A stretch of 64,000 nt of DNA from Acidobacteriota bacterium (GTDB lineage: Bacteria; Acidobacteriota; Terriglobia; Terriglobales; SCQP01): the NCBI GenBank assembly GCA_021789895.1, contig JAJYIU010000001.1, positions 62,001 to 126,000 on the forward strand, in the 5' to 3' direction. The notes under the pieces are model-generated. The model was not told the DNA's origin. It was given only the letters and a program-made list of their open reading frames with translations, and did no database searches. Within the stretch, counting starts at the first letter, position 1. Each line of letters starts with the position of its first letter. Position numbers and translations under genes: made by a program. This document shows positions 5,001-64,000 of this stretch, piece by piece.

Positions 5001-5963
5001 TCAGGGCTGCGGCGCGCTGCGATAGATCGCCCGCCCGTAGCTGGAACTGACCGCCACGCGCTGGAAATAGCCATACCACAGGCGCGAAATCGCGGTGATC
5101 GCCCGCTCGCCCGCTTTGCCCGACCGATCGAAGGTAGTGAAAACGCAAAGCTCGTAAGGACGCCGCGGCAGCAGCACCAGCCCGCAATCGCAGCGCACGT
5201 TTTCCAGCACCCCCGGCTTATCCGCAACCGCGACTCCCGGCGCCACGCCGCGGCTGAGCGGGGTGCCCTCCTGCCGGCTGGGCAATTCCATCAGATGAAG
5301 ATAAAGCCGGCGCGAAGCCGGGGAAAGCACGCCGCCCCGGTAAACCCGGCGCAACAGCCGCAGCAGGTCGCGCGGCGTGGACACATTCTCGCGGCCGGCG
5401 CGGGCCGCCTTCGAATCCATCATCTCGCGCCGCAGGGCAGTGTGCGCGAGCCCCAGGCGCCGCATTTCACGGTTGATGCGTTCCCGTCCGATGCGCTCGA
5501 TCAGCAGGTTGGTGGCGGAGTTATCGCTCAACTGCATCATCGCGACCGCCAGATCGCCCAGCGACATGACCGTGGCGCCATCGCGCAGGTTATGCAGCAC
5601 TCCGGAACCGCCGACGGTCATCGCCGGGCGGATGCGCACCGGGGTGGATAAATCCAAACGGTGCAGGTCGGCGAGGTGCAGCAGCTCGAATAAAATCGTT
5701 GTCTTGATCGTGCTGGCGGTGGGCAGCGCCAGGCCACCGTGGTGGTACCAGGCTTGGCCGCTGGTCAGATCGCGGACCCCGATGCCCATAATCCCGTCGA
5801 AGCGCGCCGCCTGCCGGCGGCTGCGGCGCACCGTCTTTTGCCAGAGCAGTTGCCGCAGCGTGCGGGGCCGGGAAGCGGCTGGAGCCGCAGCCCGCGCGCC
5901 GGCGGTCGGTGCCGCCATGACCGCAACCGCGGCTAAAACCGCGCGCATTCCGCCGAGTCGCAT
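5001..5963 (-). CDS. Exported serine hydrolase of the class A beta-lactamase fold, atypical active site
   Basis: This 320-residue protein has an N-terminal signal peptide (MRLGGMRAVLAAVAVMAAPTAGARA) and the penicillin-binding/beta-lactamase fold. The nucleophile motif S-x-x-K appears in PTASTIKTT, and the second motif SDN in MQLSDNSATN. The third motif reads DKPG instead of K-T/S-G. In the omega-loop region (LRREMMDSKAARAGRENVSTP) neither Glu166 nor Asn170 of class A enzymes aligns. It is therefore more likely a periplasmic peptidase or cell-wall hydrolase than an efficient beta-lactamase. It lies 18 bp downstream of a secreted hypothetical protein and probably belongs to the hemL transcription unit. 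Confidence 0.8.
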   Translation of the reverse strand: MRLGGMRAVLAAVAVMAAPTAGARAAAPAASRPRTLRQLLWQKTVRRSRRQAARFDGIMGIGVRDLTSGQAWYHHGGLALPTASTIKTTILFELLHLADLHRLDLSTPVRIRPAMTVGGSGVLHNLRDGATVMSLGDLAVAMMQLSDNSATNLLIERIGRERINREMRRLGLAHTALRREMMDSKAARAGRENVSTPRDLLRLLRRVYRGGVLSPASRRLYLHLMELPSRQEGTPLSRGVAPGVAVADKPGVLENVRCDCGLVLLPRRPYELCVFTTFDRSGKAGERAITAISRLWYGYFQRVAVSSSYGRAIYRSAPQP

Positions 5964-56087: not shown

Positions 56088-57713
56088 CTAGCCTTTCCAC
56101 GGCGCGCCCGGGGCCCGGGGCACGTTCGACTTCAGGAAAAACGAAAGCCCCAAGAGGCCGGTCGCGGTCAGGGCGATGATGTGGTAAACGTCAATATAAG
56201 CAAGCGCGACCGCCTGCGTGATCAGCGCATGATAGATGCGCGCATAGGCTTGCAACAGCGCATCCGGGGCGTTGAGGCCAGCTTGCTCCAGCGCGGCGGC
56301 TAGGCGGTGTAGCGCGCCGGAGGCATATACGTTGGCGGGTGTGAGATGTGATATCAGCGCCTGTTGATGGAATTGGGCCCGGCGGGCCAGCAGGGTGGTG
56401 ACCAGCGAGGTGCCGAAGCTCATGCCGATGTTGCGCATGAAATTGATCAGCGCCGAAATTGCATTATTTTTCTCCGCCGGCAGCCCGGCATAGACCACGG
56501 TGGTGAGCGGAACGAACAGTAGCGGCAGGCCAATCACCTGCAATACCCGGATCCAGGAGGCGGCGCCGAAGCTGATGAGCGTGTTCATCGTGTGGGTGGA
56601 TACCCACATGCCTACGGCCATCGCCGCCCAGCCGATGTGCACCAGCCGCCGAGCCTGCAATTTACCTAGCAAACGGCCCACCAGTGGCAGTTCCAGCAGC
56701 AGGAACAGGCCGCCGAAGGACAGCACCAGGCCGGCATTTTCCGCCGTGTAGCCCATCAGCGTCTGTAAATACAGCGGCATCATCACCAGCGTGCTGAACA
56801 TCATCACGCCGAAGCCGAACATCATCAGGTTGGTGGTGAGAAAGTTGAAATGCTTGAAGAGACGGACATCTATCACCGGGTGATCGTGAAACCATTCCCA
56901 GATCAACAGCGCCGCCAGGGTGAGGACGACAACGATGGCCAGCGCCACGATGAAATGGGAGCCGAACCAATCGTCCTCCTGTCCCTTGTCGAGCATCACC
57001 TGCAGGGCGGTGATGCCCACGGCCAGCAGCCCGATGCCGATGTAATCAACCTTCACTGATTTGTGCGCCGCCCGCCGCAGCGATTCCGGGTCTTGAATCC
57101 ACTGCTTCACCAGCAGTAGGGCCAGCATGCCGACCGGGATGTTGATGAAGAAAATCCAACGCCAAGAAGCGTTGTCGGTGATCCAGCCGCCGAGGGTGGG
57201 GCCGACGATGGGTGCGAGCACGGTGGTGATGCCATAGAGGGCGAAGGCCTGCCCGCGTTGGCTTTCCGGAAACGTGTCCGCGAGAATGGCCTGCGCCACG
57301 GGTTGCAATCCGCCGCCGCCGGCGCCTTGCAGCACCCGGAAAAGGATCATCGCCGACAGCGAGGGCGCCAGACCGCAAAGCACCGAACTGGCGGTAAAAA
57401 GCAGCAGCGAGAGCATGAAATATCGCTTGCGGCCGATGGTGTTCGAGATCCATCCGCTGAGCGGGAGGATGATGGCATTGGCGACCAGGTAGGAGGTGAG
57501 AATCCAGGTCGCTTCGTCGGTAGTCGAAGACAGGCTGCCCGCCATGTGCGGCAGGGCGACATTGGCGATGCTGGCGTCCAGCAGCTCCATGAAGGCGGAA
57601 AGCGCCACCACCGATGCGATCAGCCAGGGGCTCCCGCCTCGCTCCCAGGTCCGCGCGAATGCTGCGGCGGAAGGAATCGGATCCGGCAGCGCGATTTCGA
57701 CCGGCTCGGCCAT
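56088..57713 (-). CDS. emrB: DHA2-family MFS drug:H+ antiporter (EmrB-like)
   Basis: The inner-membrane pump of a tripartite efflux system, with 541 residues and about 14 transmembrane helices. Typical features are the first-helix VVALSAFMELLDASIANVALPHMAGSL (motif D1, with Asp in LLDASIANVAL), motif A as GWISNTIGRKRYFM, motif B region RVLQGAGGGGLQPVAQAI, and motif C as YGITTVLAPIVGPTLGGWITD. It lies 26 bp after the EmrA-like gene and ends the tetR-tolC-emrA-emrB unit. The substrate is probably lipophilic toxicants, but the sequence cannot specify. Confidence 0.95.
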   Translation of the reverse strand: MAEPVEIALPDPIPSAAAFARTWERGGSPWLIASVVALSAFMELLDASIANVALPHMAGSLSSTTDEATWILTSYLVANAIILPLSGWISNTIGRKRYFMLSLLLFTASSVLCGLAPSLSAMILFRVLQGAGGGGLQPVAQAILADTFPESQRGQAFALYGITTVLAPIVGPTLGGWITDNASWRWIFFINIPVGMLALLLVKQWIQDPESLRRAAHKSVKVDYIGIGLLAVGITALQVMLDKGQEDDWFGSHFIVALAIVVVLTLAALLIWEWFHDHPVIDVRLFKHFNFLTTNLMMFGFGVMMFSTLVMMPLYLQTLMGYTAENAGLVLSFGGLFLLLELPLVGRLLGKLQARRLVHIGWAAMAVGMWVSTHTMNTLISFGAASWIRVLQVIGLPLLFVPLTTVVYAGLPAEKNNAISALINFMRNIGMSFGTSLVTTLLARRAQFHQQALISHLTPANVYASGALHRLAAALEQAGLNAPDALLQAYARIYHALITQAVALAYIDVYHIIALTATGLLGLSFFLKSNVPRAPGAPWKG

Positions 57714-57739: not shown

Positions 57740-59005
57740 TCAGCGGACCCGCACCCGCGGTTCAACCGACAGCCCGACGCGGAGCCGGTGTTGCGGATCC
57801 TGGCCCGGATCGAATACGATCTTCACCGGCACCCGCTGAACTACTTTGACGTAATTCCCGGTGGCATTCTCGGGCGGCAGCAAACTATATTGCACGCCGG
57901 TGGCTTGCGAGATGCCAAATACGTGCCCGCGATAATTGCGCCCGTAAGCGTCCACATGAATCATCGCCGGGTCGCCGGCGCGCATGTGCTGCAAGTCGGT
58001 TTCTTTGAAATTCGCCGTTACCCACAGGTTTTCGGCCGGGACGATGGTCAACAAAGTCTGTCCCGGGGCGATATTCTCGCCCGCCACCACCTTGCGGTTG
58101 CCGACGATGCCGCTGACCGGCGCGACAATGGTGCAGTATTGCAGATTCAATTCAGCCTGCTGCAGACGGGCTTGCGCGGTTTGCACCGCCGCCGCCGCCG
58201 CCGCGGCGCGGGCATGGGAACTCTGCAACTGCTGGGGCCGCGTGGAGGCGCGGTAGAGGGCGGCTTGCGACTGGGCCAGTTGGCTTTCCGTCTGCTTGAT
58301 TTGCCGGTGGGCGGCATCGGCGAGTGCTTCGAGCGCCGCTACCCGCGCTGCGCTCGCCTGCGCCGCCGCCACGGCGTGATCGTACTGTTGCACGGAGACT
58401 TCATGCTTGGCCACCAGCGCGGCGTAACGATGCCGGTCGGCCTGAGCTTGGGTGTTGTTTGCTTCCGCCTCCCGCAGGCGTGCTGCGGCGGCTTCAAACT
58501 GCCGCTGCGCCGCCGCGATCCCGGCTTGCGCGCTAGCGACCTGCGCCTGCGCCGCGTTCAGTTGGCTTGCGGTTTGAATAGATGCGATTGGCACGCCCAC
58601 TGCGGCCGCTGCGGCGGCGGCTCGCGCGTCCGCCAGTTCCCCCTCGGCCTGCGCCTCCGCCGCACGATAATCCGTGGGATCGAGCTGGACCAGTACCTGA
58701 CCGGCCTGCACCGGCTGGGTGTTATCCACCAGCACCTGCAGAACGTGGCCCGGTATGCGTGAACTTAATGGATAAAGATGCGCCTCGATCTGAGCGTCGT
58801 CAGTGGACACCCATCCGGCATAATGACGCCACAACAGCAAGGCCGCCACGCCCACCAGCGCTATCGCGGCAATCAACAGACGCTTGCGTTTTGCTTTCGA
58901 CAAGCCATGCGCGGGGGACGTGCCGCTGTCGTTCGCACTCGCCGCCGGGTTGATTGCCTTGCCGGGAGCCGTTCCCTTCGGTTCATTGGCAACCTTCGGT
59001 GTCAT
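57740..59005 (-). CDS. emrA: HlyD/EmrA-family membrane-fusion protein
   Basis: The periplasmic adaptor joining the MFS pump to the outer-membrane channel, with 421 residues. It has a cytoplasmic tail, a single transmembrane helix (KRLLIAAIALVGVAALLLWRHYA, about residues 42-64), and the lipoyl half-motif in WVSTDDAQIEAHLYPLSSRIPGHVLQVLVDNTQPVQAGQVLVQLDP. A long Ala/Gln-rich coiled-coil hairpin follows (about 115-285), then LQYCTIVAPVSGIVGNRKVVAGENIAPGQTLLTIVP and NLWVTANFKETDLQHMRAGDPAMIHVDAYG. Its ATG overlaps the tolC stop by one base. Confidence 0.95.
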   Translation of the reverse strand: MTPKVANEPKGTAPGKAINPAASANDSGTSPAHGLSKAKRKRLLIAAIALVGVAALLLWRHYAGWVSTDDAQIEAHLYPLSSRIPGHVLQVLVDNTQPVQAGQVLVQLDPTDYRAAEAQAEGELADARAAAAAAAVGVPIASIQTASQLNAAQAQVASAQAGIAAAQRQFEAAAARLREAEANNTQAQADRHRYAALVAKHEVSVQQYDHAVAAAQASAARVAALEALADAAHRQIKQTESQLAQSQAALYRASTRPQQLQSSHARAAAAAAAVQTAQARLQQAELNLQYCTIVAPVSGIVGNRKVVAGENIAPGQTLLTIVPAENLWVTANFKETDLQHMRAGDPAMIHVDAYGRNYRGHVFGISQATGVQYSLLPPENATGNYVKVVQRVPVKIVFDPGQDPQHRLRVGLSVEPRVRVR

Positions 59006-60504
59006 TAGTTCCCTCCGATGTACCGCAGTACGGTCTGCCGGGCATTGCCCAATGCGCGCGCCAGGGAGATCTTGGCGGCATTATCCTGATAGAGACTGGC
59101 GATGTAGGCATCCTCGACGACGGCGACGGTTTCCTGGGCCTCGACGACTTCAAGGTTATCGGTGACTCCGGCCGCATACCGGTCCCGTGCTTGTGCTAGC
59201 GTCTGGCGGGCGAGCGTGGTATTGGACCGAGCTACGGCGACTTGCTGGTTGGCGGTCTGTATGTTCAGCAACGCCGTGCGCAGGTCATAGGCGATCTGGC
59301 CTCGCAGGTCGTTGAGCCGGTCTTCGGCTTGTTGAAGCTGCGCTTCCGCCTGCATGAGCTCGCCTCGCACTCGGCCCCCTTGAAAAACTGGCAGGTGGAG
59401 CGTGGCGGTGAAGCTGAAGGTGTCATGCGAAAACGTCGGGCGGAAGCCCGCAGCGCCAAAATCCCCCGCCACGCCTATCCAGGGATAGCGTTCCGCCATG
59501 ATCGCTCGCCGCCGTGCTTGTGCGGCGTGTACTGCGGCTGCGGCCGCATGATAGTCCGCCCGGTTCGTCAAGGCTTCAGCGAAGGCCTGGGCATAAGGCA
59601 TGGCGCGCAGGGATTGGTAACGCGCCGGGGTTGACAAGCGAAACCGCTGACCATCGGGCAGTCCAATCAGGCGGGCTAAATTCAGCCGTGCGATTCGCGC
59701 CTCATTCCTCGCGGCTATCCAATGCTGCTCGCGCGACTGCAATTCCACCCGCGCCCGCAACGTGTCTATTTCGGGGCTGAAGCCAGCGTGATAACGGTCT
59801 TCGGCTTGCCGGTATAGTGCCTGGGCGGTGTTCACTTGGGCGGCGGCGGCTTGCACTTCCGTCCGCGCTGCTACGCCGAGCAAATAAGCATTGCTGATGG
59901 CCAGCACCACGACATCGCGAGCGTCTTGCCAGCCATAACCGGCGGCCTTGACTTCCGCCGACGCCGCCTGCAGGTTCCGTAATGCGGCGAGATTGAGGAT
60001 CGGCGCCCTTACGGAGGCGCGCGCATCGAAAACATTGAACGGGCCGCTGATTGGGTTGATGTTGCGAATGCTGGTTGGAAAGCCGATGGCGTAGAGATTC
60101 ACCAGCCGTTTGCCGGTGGTGGCGGAGGTAGTCAAGCGCGGCAGGAGCCGGCTCAAGGCAAGCCAACGCCGGCCTCGCGCCGCCTGGCGCGCTTGCGCAT
60201 TCAGCAGCACTGCCAGGTTGTAGCGAAGGCCGCGCTTCAGTGCCTGCTGCAGAGATAAGGGCAGTGTTTGGGTGCTGGCGCGGCCTGAAGCCACGCTGCC
60301 CTGATACGAATTTTGCAAAGAATTGAGCTCCGCCATCGGAAGCGTGGGCGGCGTCGAGGAGTACATCCCGGAAGCCGTCACGGTTGATTGCGCCTGCGTA
60401 GGCGGAGCGCCGCCCAGCATTCCCGCGCCCAGGGCGCTGGCTAGGAACAAACCCTGTGCCACTATCTTTTTCAGGCGATCCGAATTTCGGAACTTGCACG
60501 ACAT
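59005..60504 (-). CDS. TolC-type outer-membrane efflux protein
   Basis: The outer-membrane channel of the same efflux system, 499 residues from the ATG at 60504. A signal sequence (KKIVAQGLFLASALGAGMLGGAPPTQAQ) is followed by two repeats of the OEP domain, with TLPLSLQQALKRGLRYNLAVLLNAQARQAA at the start of the first, helical hairpins such as AAAAVHAAQARRRAIMAERYPWIGVAGDFGAAGF, and the late ARQTLAQARDRYAAGVTDNLEVVEAQETVAVVEDAYIASLYQDNAAKISLARALG. The latter is the family's signature. An upstream in-frame ATG at 60540 lacks signal-peptide sense. It lies 60 bp after tetR. Confidence 0.93.
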   Translation of the reverse strand: MSCKFRNSDRLKKIVAQGLFLASALGAGMLGGAPPTQAQSTVTASGMYSSTPPTLPMAELNSLQNSYQGSVASGRASTQTLPLSLQQALKRGLRYNLAVLLNAQARQAARGRRWLALSRLLPRLTTSATTGKRLVNLYAIGFPTSIRNINPISGPFNVFDARASVRAPILNLAALRNLQAASAEVKAAGYGWQDARDVVVLAISNAYLLGVAARTEVQAAAAQVNTAQALYRQAEDRYHAGFSPEIDTLRARVELQSREQHWIAARNEARIARLNLARLIGLPDGQRFRLSTPARYQSLRAMPYAQAFAEALTNRADYHAAAAAVHAAQARRRAIMAERYPWIGVAGDFGAAGFRPTFSHDTFSFTATLHLPVFQGGRVRGELMQAEAQLQQAEDRLNDLRGQIAYDLRTALLNIQTANQQVAVARSNTTLARQTLAQARDRYAAGVTDNLEVVEAQETVAVVEDAYIASLYQDNAAKISLARALGNARQTVLRYIGGN

Positions 60505-60564
60505 GTCGTTCTCAACCTTTGGCCAGCAGGGCGGCTCCATGGCATCGTCATGGCTCCCTGGCTT

Positions 60565-61170
60565 CTAAGCTGCCTCGATGCTTTTCCAATAGTCTTCAAA
60601 CGCCGCTTGCAACCGCCTCGCCAGCTGGATTTGCGGGTGGATCGCCCAGACCATGAGAGCGCCCAAGACCGCCTGCTGAAAGGCCAGGCCCATTGCCGCA
60701 GGTTGGCAATCGGCTCGGATCTGGCCCTGCGCTTGCCCGAGGGCGAAGATACGCGCCAGCCGTTGCCGCCCCTGGCGCATGCCAGTCGCCACCGTCTCGC
60801 GGGCGATTTCGTTTCCGATGATGGCGGCGATCAGCGCCTGCGCCAGCTTCGGGCTGCCCCCGATTTCCCCGCCCAGGCGCTGAAACGCCCGTCGCAGGAC
60901 CGGCCGCACCGGCCGGCCCTGCTGGACGGCTGCCAGCGCTTCGCCGACCCTGCCCAACTGTAACTCGATGAAATAGGCGAAAACCTGTTCCTTGCTGCGG
61001 AAATAGTTGAAGAAGGTGCCCTTGGCGACATCGGCCCGCGCGGTGATCTGATCCACGGTGGTGGCGGTTAGGCCATGTTTGGCAAAGAGTTCGAGCGCCG
61101 CCTGGTAGATGCGCTGCCGGGTCTGCGCCTTCTTGCGCGCGTAGCGGGGGAGAAGCTCGTCGCCGGCCAT
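60565..61170 (-). CDS. TetR-family repressor of the efflux operon
   Basis: The 201-residue regulator has a TetR DNA-binding domain (KKAQTRQRIYQAALELFAKHGLTATTVDQITARADVAKGTFFNYFRSKEQVFAYFIE, residues about 12-66); its recognition helix includes VAKGTFFNYF. The ligand-binding half (from about 75) includes LIAAIIGNEIARETVATGMRQGRQRLARIFALGQAQGQI. The ATG at 61170 was selected because GGAGG precedes it by 5 bp and because longer starts would put the coding region through the two palindromes at 61197-61233. It probably represses its own tetR-tolC-emrA-emrB operon. Confidence 0.93.
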   Translation of the reverse strand: MAGDELLPRYARKKAQTRQRIYQAALELFAKHGLTATTVDQITARADVAKGTFFNYFRSKEQVFAYFIELQLGRVGEALAAVQQGRPVRPVLRRAFQRLGGEIGGSPKLAQALIAAIIGNEIARETVATGMRQGRQRLARIFALGQAQGQIRADCQPAAMGLAFQQAVLGALMVWAIHPQIQLARRLQAAFEDYWKSIEAA

Positions 61171-61196
61171 GCCCGCCTCCGCCGAGCGGCCCGCAT

Positions 61197-61233
61197 TATG
61201 ACCAAAAGTCATATTTGGATGACTGCCAGTCAT
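61197..61233 (-). promoter_or_regulatory. Two identical-type palindromic operators upstream of tetR
   Basis: Two sites of the form ATGAC-N5-GTCAT lie at 61198-61212 (extended to TATGAC...GTCATA, 61197-61213) and 61219-61233 (extended to ATGACT...AGTCAT). Their centres at 61205 and 61226 are 21 bp apart, two helical turns, so they face the same side of the helix. They end 27 bp upstream of the tetR ATG and lie in the only intergenic space in front of the operon. TetR dimers usually bind such palindromes. Confidence 0.7.
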
Positions 61234-61236
61234 TAT

Positions 61237-61713
61237 TTAGCCCTTCTCTTGCTCGGATGCGCGGCGGCGTCGAAGGTGACAGGGATTTAGAGTTGGGGCG
61301 AGAAGGCTGGGCGCGGGCCCTTCCTCCCGGCGGTTGTTCTGGGCTTGCTGCAGGACGTCCAAAACCGGCTCGGCATCCCCCAGGACGCGAGTTGCCAAGG
61401 CCAGACGAACGATATGTAATGTCTCGCGCAATTTCTCAGGCGGAATGCCCTGCACTTTGGCCTTGTTGGCCATCGCCGCGATGCAGGCGTGGTTTGAGGC
61501 GGCCAGCGCAGCCGCGAGATAGATTAAGGTCCGGGTTTCTTCATCGAGCGCGGGCTGTTCAAGCGGCATGGCGTAGCCACGGGAACGCAGATGCTCGTAG
61601 ACCAAGCCGGCATCCACCTGGGCAGCTTTTTTCATGGCTATGGGGATGGATCCCATCGAGGCGTGCATGCTTGCGAGAATTTGGCGGAGAGATGGTTGGG
61701 TTTCGGATTTCAT
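61237..61713 (-). CDS. AhpD/carboxymuconolactone-decarboxylase-like protein, degenerate active site
   Basis: The 158-residue protein resembles the AhpD/CMD family: LDEETRTLIYLAAALAASNHACIAAMANKAKVQGIPPEKLRETLHIVRLALATRVLGDAEPVLDVL. The usual redox motif C-x2-C-x2-H aligns here as N-H-A-C-I-A-A-M, with the first Cys replaced by Asn and the His by Met, so a typical AhpD disulfide chemistry is unlikely. It is the last gene of the minus-strand arsenic cluster, 53 bp after the potassium channel gene. The C-terminus is basic (LRRRRASEQEKG). Longer readings upstream overlap the channel gene in another frame and are rejected. Confidence 0.75.
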   Translation of the reverse strand: MKSETQPSLRQILASMHASMGSIPIAMKKAAQVDAGLVYEHLRSRGYAMPLEQPALDEETRTLIYLAAALAASNHACIAAMANKAKVQGIPPEKLRETLHIVRLALATRVLGDAEPVLDVLQQAQNNRREEGPAPSLLAPTLNPCHLRRRRASEQEKG

Positions 61714-62298: not shown

Positions 62299-62541
62299 TC
62301 AACCCTTGACCGCAATCTGCATGAGCATCGAGCCGATGGATAGCCGGTAACATCCATCCCAGTCATGGCATTCAAGGCAGCCTTGCCATTCGGCATGATT
62401 GGCGATTGCAATCCGTTGGGTCACGGCCAGACCCGACTGGGCGGTCCGGTAACCAAATACCTTGCCGGCGACGGTCTGGTTGCGGGCCAAAGGAATGATG
62501 TCGGGAAACATCTTGCCGTAACAGTCCAATCTTGCTTTCAT
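62299..62541 (-). CDS. Small conserved cysteine-containing protein in the arsenic cluster
   Basis: No function is known. The 80-residue product reads [40 protein letters not shown] and ends with a cysteine-rich stretch ([29 protein letters not shown]) that could bind a metal or a thiol-reactive ion. The ATG at 62541 overlaps the ACR3 stop as ATGA, firmly placing it in the operon. Its small size, Cys-x2-Cys-x5-Cys arrangement and arsenic context suggest, without proof, a metalloid-related accessory role. The last helix lacks a clear membrane character. Confidence 0.8.
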
Positions 62542-63623
62542 GGCGCCGCCTCCCTGGCTTTTGGGCGCGCTGGCAGGGCTTTTGGTGCCTCGCCGTAATA
62601 GCGCCGCTGGAGATAGAAGGCCGCGTTCACCAGGCCGATCATGGCCGGCACTTCGACCAGCGGCCCGATCACCGCGGCAAACGCGGCGCCGGAATTGATG
62701 CCGAAGACGGCCACGGTCACGGCAATGGCCAATTCAAAATTATTGCTCGCGGCGGTAAAAGCCAAGGTCGTGGTGTTGGAATAATTGGCGCCCAGTTTAT
62801 AGCCCAAATAAAATGAAACCAAAAACATGGCGACAAAATAGAGCAGCAGCGGAACCGCGATGCGGATCACATCCAATGGCAAGTGGACGATAGTCGCCCC
62901 TTTCAGGGAGAACATCACGACGATCGTGAACAGCAGGGCGATCAGCGTGACGGGGCCGATGCGGGGGATAAAATGCGTTTCGTACCAGGCACGGCCCTTC
63001 CGCCGCACCAGGATCAGGCGGGTGGTCATGCCGGCCAGAAATGGAATGCCGAGATAGAAGAAGACACTGTGGGCGATTTCACCGATGGAAATGTCAACCA
63101 TAGCTCCCCGCAAGCCCAACAGCGGCGGGAGCTTGGTCACAAAAATCCAGGCGTAGACGGAATAGAACAGAACTTGAAAGATCGAATTCAAAGCCACCAG
63201 GCCGGCCGCGTATTCCGAGTCACCCTCGGCCAGATCATTCCAGACGATGACCATGGCGATGCAGCGCGCGAGACCGATCATAATCAGCCCGGCCATGTAT
63301 TCCGGATACTTGCGGAGGAAAATGATCGCCAGGAGAAACATTAAAGCCGGACCGATGATCCAGTTTTCAATCAGCGAGAGGGCCAGAATTTTCCTGTTCC
63401 GGAAGACCTCGCCCAACTCTTCATAACGGACCTTGGCGAGCGGGGGATACATCATCAGGATCAAACCAATGGCAATCGGCAACGAGGTCGTGCCCATGCT
63501 GAAGCGATTCAGGAAGGGCACGATGCCGGGCCAGATCCACCCGCCGCCCACGCCGAGCAGCATGGCGGCAAATATCCACAGCGTCAGGTAACGGTTCAGA
63601 AAAGATAGCCGGCGTTCTTTCAC
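62538..63623 (-). CDS. ACR3-family arsenite efflux permease
   Basis: ACR3 exports arsenite using the proton motive force. The 361-residue protein has ten hydrophobic helices. It has the diagnostic Cys region [39 protein letters not shown] (the conserved Cys required for transport) and the essential Glu in [37 protein letters not shown]. The N-terminal [28 protein letters not shown] is also typical. It lies 9 bp after the arsC-like gene and overlaps the small Cys protein gene by 4 bp. It is probably in one operon under an ArsR-type regulator beyond the right edge. Confidence 0.96.
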
Positions 63624-63632
63624 GCAGGACTC

Positions 63633-64000
63633 CTACGACCGGCCGATCCGGTCGAGTGCGCGCCGGATCGCCATGGGCTCCAGCGACGTCAACGGGAGGG
63701 AGAGAAACAGGCCAATTCTGCGGTCCAACATCGTAAACGCATCCTGAAACGCGCGGGCAATTTCTTCCGGCGTCGCGTGAACGGCAGCCGGATCCGGAAT
63801 GCCCCAATGCGCAGTGATCGGCCGGCCCGGCCAAAAAGGGCAGGGTTCCTTGGCGGCGTGGTCGCAGACGGTGAAGACGAAATCCATTTGCGGCGCGTTC
63901 GGCTGCGCGAACTCCTCCCAGGATTTACTGCGCAGGCCGGCGGTAGGCAACCCGGCGGATGCGATCTGCCGCAGCGCCTCCGGCCTCACCTGGCCGGCCG
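63633..64000 (-). CDS. arsC: Thioredoxin-type arsenate reductase (ArsC), N-terminus beyond right edge
   Basis: ArsC of the low-molecular-weight phosphatase fold reduces arsenate to arsenite with thioredoxin. About 122 C-terminal residues are visible: VRPEALRQIASAGLPTAGLRSKSWEEFAQPNAPQMDFVFTVCDHAAKEPCPFWPGRPITAHWGIPDPAAVHATPEEIARAFQDAFTML. The FVFTVCDHA...CPFWPG segment carries the two resolving-type cysteines, and HWGIPDPA is the family signature. The catalytic C-x5-R loop is off the window. The frame continues open to the edge, so the GTG at 63989 is probably internal. ACR3 starts 9 bp downstream. Confidence 0.93.
   Translation of the reverse strand, partial: AGQVRPEALRQIASAGLPTAGLRSKSWEEFAQPNAPQMDFVFTVCDHAAKEPCPFWPGRPITAHWGIPDPAAVHATPEEIARAFQDAFTMLDRRIGLFLSLPLTSLEPMAIRRALDRIGRS

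Follow-up and report, generated by a model that had tools for sequence, protein, structure and literature searches.

Two palindromes that share the half-site ATGAC and lie at the start of a tetR-tolC-emrA-emrB operon of an Acidobacteriota genome are, as judged by sequence comparison, very likely to be operators of the TetR-family regulator encoded beside them. The sequence-only reading had proposed this assignment, and it is borne out by homologous loci from several phyla, nearly all of which carry the same half-site in tandem in front of the regulator gene. Tandem operators are thus well supported for the TetR lineage found in the window, that is, in the whole 64,000-nt stretch of DNA analysed. 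More fully, we consider that the palindromes are autoregulatory operators which would repress by site occupancy, and that they descend from an old module with 17-bp spacing, the window belonging to a clade in which the spacing is 21 bp and the sites are coding; we assign to this model, including the binding and repression that we infer, a probability of roughly 0.85. What appears to be new is the 17-bp tiling, in which the same bases would serve two purposes, and the existence of a clade whose array probably is part of the coding sequence.

An efflux operon with two palindromes at its start

The tetR, tolC, emrA and emrB genes lie consecutively on the minus strand (Table 1). At the gene level, they make up a tripartite EmrAB-TolC set in one operon, with TolC, an EmrA-like adaptor and a DHA2 MFS exporter. 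Matches to TetR_N, OEP, HlyD and EmrB-type MFS models confirm the neighbours that had been read from the sequence, with scores below the curated cut-offs for the EmrA and TolC models and above the cut-off for the EmrB subfamily. The regulator itself matches the TetR_N helix-turn-helix domain (PF00440) with 58.3 bits against a cut-off of 24, and is one of four TetR-family matches in the genome. Its AlphaFold model displays the standard all-helical TetR fold with a ligand domain (pLDDT 88; below 50 for residues 1-24), and the top PDB matches are TetR-family proteins. A palindromic candidate operator close to the regulator's own gene, as is usual for the family, is also present at the sequence level.

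Table 1. Coordinates of the predicted genes and putative operators in the window
Feature	Position	Strand	Remarks
emrB-type DHA2 MFS exporter	56088..57713	-	TIGR00711, 1.2e-135, over cut-off
emrA-type membrane fusion protein	57740..59005	-	TIGR00998, 2.1e-72, under curated cut-off
tolC-type outer membrane efflux protein	59005..60540	-	OEP, 9.9e-45
tetR, long form (222 aa)	60565..61233	-	starts at the O1 ATG; TetR_N, 6.6e-16
tetR, shorter starts	61212 (215 aa); 61170 (201 aa)	-	in-frame ATGs; 61170 with its own GGAGG
Putative operator O2	61198..61212	-	ATGACTTTTGGTCAT on the - strand; 21 bp (7 codons) past O1
Putative operator O1	61219..61233	-	ATGACTGGCAGTCAT on the - strand; first in the direction of tetR transcription; conserved in L004, L090 and L005
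AhpD/carboxymuconolactone-decarboxylase-like (CMD) gene	61237..61713	-	CMD, 5.3e-8; stop 3 bp before O1

Neither palindrome, ATGACCAAAAGTCAT at O2 or ATGACTGCCAGTCAT at O1, has a mismatch in the ten specified bases of ATGAC-N5-GTCAT. Both are complete, they do not overlap, and 21 bp separate the centre of one (61205) from that of the other (61226); the half-site, the spacer length and the distance had all been described correctly, with a start coordinate one base off. By chance, ~0.02 exact sites would be expected per window (window composition, 64% G+C) and close pairs of exact sites at ~2e-5 per whole genome (64% G+C). The window contains no third operator site, the best other score being -1.

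Upstream of tetR, the minus strand carries the CMD gene, an ion channel gene, a gene for an SBF-family transporter and an arsenate reductase-like gene, the last of these recognized by eye. The transporter, probably an arsenite exporter of the ACR3 type, and the arsenate reductase-like gene occupy positions 62538-63998, upstream of the efflux module. A search for a sigma-70 promoter around O1 in the window gave none, and tetR transcription could enter from the CMD gene. The CMD frame extends to 3 bp before O1, ~30 codons beyond the end of its homologue in locus L004. That homologue directly follows tetR (at a contig end), and in L090 and L005 the CMD homologue is located between tetR and tolC. 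The position of the CMD gene upstream of tetR in the window and downstream of it in the three other loci indicates that the module has been rearranged.

Arrays upstream of TetR homologues

Homologues were gathered by sequence only, with the window TetR as protein query, so that the upstream DNA played no part in their selection, and 92 non-redundant loci were kept. A position weight matrix derived from the palindrome sites served to score the upstream regions. The palindrome is present in all but a few of the upstream regions, and the commonest array is a pair of sites 17 bp apart (45 loci), followed by three sites with 17+17 bp (18), a 34-bp distance (9) and four sites with 17+17+17 bp (2); the remaining loci have sites 21 bp apart (3), a single site (9) or other arrangements (6). 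Conservation in homologous loci, which had been named as a check on the operator assignment, is therefore evident, with any 17- or 34-bp step in the arrays of 78 of the 92 loci, but the 21-bp distance is confined to the window, L004 and L090. These three form one clade, with support of 100/86 in a tree of the 92 proteins. Only one site is clear in L006, which falls just outside this clade, and the second site of L005 is degraded, suggesting that two sites are not essential.

The same spacing emerged from a protein-blind scan of the DNA of 299 genomes of the same class, with the gap left free between 0 and 24. This yielded 14 pairs, 12 of them at 17 bp, one at 28 bp and one, that of the window, at 21 bp, from genomes that are partly shared with the homologue set, so that the two analyses are not fully independent. 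All 12 pairs at 17 bp lie 36-86 bp from a TetR match, and a control with the reversed pattern gave one hit in the 299 genomes. A strict two-site scan of 396 genomes of the phylum retrieved only the window and one place next to a different TetR, because second sites usually are imperfect. The same array precedes MFS, ABC-2 and RND exporters alike, which indicates that it belongs to the regulator rather than to the pump. The recognition helix KGTFFNYF (K71-F78) is invariant in 39 aligned homologues, an invariance inflated by the use of KGTFFNYF as one of the search seeds.

Related pairs were also encountered in other contexts. For instance, an ATGAC-N5-GTCA pair with a distance of 23 bp (L085, 1500-1536; genome G360, same phylum) adjoins a different TetR-family gene with the helix KGTIFIYF, and the same palindrome is paired at 28 bp in L135 (1500-1541; genome G532), with no clear TetR alongside. 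No relative was found among viral contigs, and plasmid records yielded only distant TetRs (~30-34% identity among the matches listed). In the open literature, we found no experimentally described relative with the motif, the motif string being matched only in work on unrelated eukaryotic subjects.

Start codon of tetR and the 21-bp spacing

The regulator had been taken for a TetR-family protein of 201 residues. The family assignment holds, but the length, which implies a start at 61170, is doubtful, comparison favouring the start at 61233 (222 residues). Four loci, the window, L004, L090 and L005, have the O1 ATG in frame with tetR. In each of them, a lead of 25 codons runs from this ATG to the LP-R-(Y/H) motif at the beginning of the conserved part of the protein, gap-free in the protein alignment, even though the DNA past the second site is hardly alike. 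A Shine-Dalgarno-like element is found just before O1 in three of these loci (GGAGG in L004 and L005, GAGG in L090), and L004 and L090 have no ATG later than that of the second site. Because of the in-frame O1 ATG and the equal lead, both operators of the 21-bp clade probably lie inside the tetR coding sequence, to judge from these alignments, with 21 bp corresponding to seven codons and translation presumably beginning at the O1 ATG. For the window, such a start is less certain, since the third in-frame ATG, at 61170, is preceded by its own GGAGG.

At 10.5 bp per turn, a distance of 21 bp corresponds to a rotation of ~0 degrees, as opposed to ~223 degrees for 17 bp and ~86 degrees for 34 bp. 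The sequence-only reading placed the two sites two helical turns apart on one DNA face; this fits the 21-bp clade and fails for the rest of the family, with its distances of 17 or 34 bp, so that the idea is limited to the clade of the window. That the distance was selected there for two dimers to bind the same helix face and cooperate is unlikely, although among the alternatives it fares best. It is consistent with the equivalence of 21 bp to two turns of B-DNA, and with the retention of this distance in two further species with TetRs that share 60% and 72% with the one in the window. Against this, the clade is small and of single origin, and so represents one event, and elsewhere in the family the rotations are ~223 and ~86 degrees. 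Furthermore, 21 is a multiple of three within an apparently translated frame, and as seven codons the distance need not reflect helical phasing; a 17-bp distance would bring the TGA of the second site into the frame of the O1 ATG. Comprising one half-site and discrete spacings in several phyla, the ~90 natural operator arrays provide a clean test of the need for helical phasing.

The likening of the pair to QacR, by contrast, is rejected on the basis of the published geometry and the 17-bp rule. The two dimers of CprB bind a single 22-bp site from opposite sides and make no contact with each other, in a mode called analogous to that of QacR (PMC4150764); a pair of distinct palindromes lying on one face is therefore not QacR-like. 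QacR, CprB and DarR are likewise TetR-family repressors, and QacR and CprB bind cooperatively as two dimers; motif comparison matches K71-G72 of the window TetR to the K-G through which CprB and DarR contact DNA. However, the dimers of these repressors share one overlapping site (bound from opposite sides in CprB), an arrangement absent from the window, where the separate palindromes are related by zero rotation.

Predicted promoter overlap, proposed mode of regulation and known systems

Many of the arrays overlap with predicted promoters or start codons. In 25 loci, a -35 element resembling TTGACA or TTGACT begins 17 bp ahead of the first operator, and the -10 element (TATAGT, TACAGT or similar) falls within the operator spacer; in 31 loci, the -35 starts 29-31 bp before the first operator and the -10 lies just before it. 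Such a -35 is present in 70 of the 92 regions, versus ~30 after shuffling. Among the 28 loci that have three sites or a 34-bp step, 24 have the ATG at the head of the last site in frame with tetR, and in 23 of these the frame stays open as far as the gene (binomial 1.6e-8 for the 24 of 28, with the loci being related and kinship ignored); several loci offer no other ATG as a candidate start.

These patterns lead us to propose, at about even odds for the proposal as a whole, a TetR lineage with a tiled operator array that doubles as a -10 box (through its spacer) or as the tetR start codon; in one clade, the array would have moved into the coding sequence and been respaced from 17 to 21 bp, such that the operator encodes the N-terminal tail of the repressor. 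Under the favoured model of autoregulation, each palindrome would bind one TetR dimer, with the invariant helix KGTFFNYF reading the invariant ATGAC half-site. When the ligand is absent, dimers on O1 and O2 would cover the start region of tetR and silence tetR-tolC-emrA-emrB, and a pump substrate might then release them. The array and its regulator would descend from an old module with two or three sites, placed every 17 bp over the -10 box, the transcription start and the tetR start codon. In the clade of the window, the array may then have been absorbed into the tetR coding sequence, with the spacing becoming 21 bp, or seven codons; the direction of this change and the release by ligand, like binding, repression and translation from the O1 ATG, belong to the inferred parts of the model. 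Overall, the arrays suggest how operator, promoter element, start codon and coding sequence can share the same bases.

A reading of the palindrome as an ordinary regulon motif of a TetR acting at many promoters can point to one further exact site (G000:C39:82499), which lies alone between a glycosyltransferase-like and a TPR-like ORF, both identified by eye. The 3.75-Mb genome has three exact sites in total, however, which apart from the tetR pair is about the chance number, and the third is without a second copy. The genome-wide scan for ATGAC-N5-GTCAT in front of other efflux genes, suggested along with the original observation, likewise revealed no second target. As no second tandem site was found elsewhere in the genome, the regulon reading is rejected as very improbable. 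Still less credible are RNA hairpins that control translation at the tetR start region, to which the many palindromes that lie at the beginning of the coding sequence or just within it might point. The pairing counts reject them, as the inner pair (positions 6 and 10) is T-A in 48 cases, C-A in 35, T-G in 33 and C-G in 28; each half-site follows a pyrimidine/purine rule, and the many C-A combinations, unpairable in RNA, argue for DNA recognition. Moreover, in the 25 loci with the predicted -10 box inside the first site, that site would not be fully transcribed.

Tandem operators as such have precedents. The tet system of Tn10 has two separate operators. The TetR operator is a 15-bp palindrome bound by one dimer (PMC4150764), and the sites described here also are palindromes of 15 bp, for which one dimer per site seems plausible; they differ from those of Tn10 in the half-site sequence, the 17- or 21-bp tiling, the location, which is inside tetR or at its start codon, and the gene order, with one operon rather than divergent genes. 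In Enterobacter lignolyticus, two conserved palindromic operators of EilR, eilO1 and eilO2, precede an efflux gene, one of them embedded in promoters (PMC6127294). The resemblance lies in the pair of palindromic TetR-family operators before an efflux gene, but those of EilR are 24 bp long, 36 bp apart and placed between divergent genes. SmeT, TtgR, AcrR, MtrR and Thermus thermophilus FadR (3ang) belong to the top matches of the window TetR in fold and sequence, with only 15-28% identity in fold alignments, which does not indicate orthology. The system also differs from EmrRAB of E. coli, where EmrR is a MarR-family protein, whereas the regulator in the window is a TetR_N protein.

In Gammaproteobacteria, members of the same TetR lineage show perfect pairs at 17 bp in front of HlyD-ABC exporters (L042, ~5917-5950; L066, ~1089-1121). 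In a Phycisphaerales genome, a gene for a YhcG-type PDDEXK nuclease is inserted between the HlyD and ABC genes of an exporter with such an array, which presumably controls it (L054, 7636-8907).
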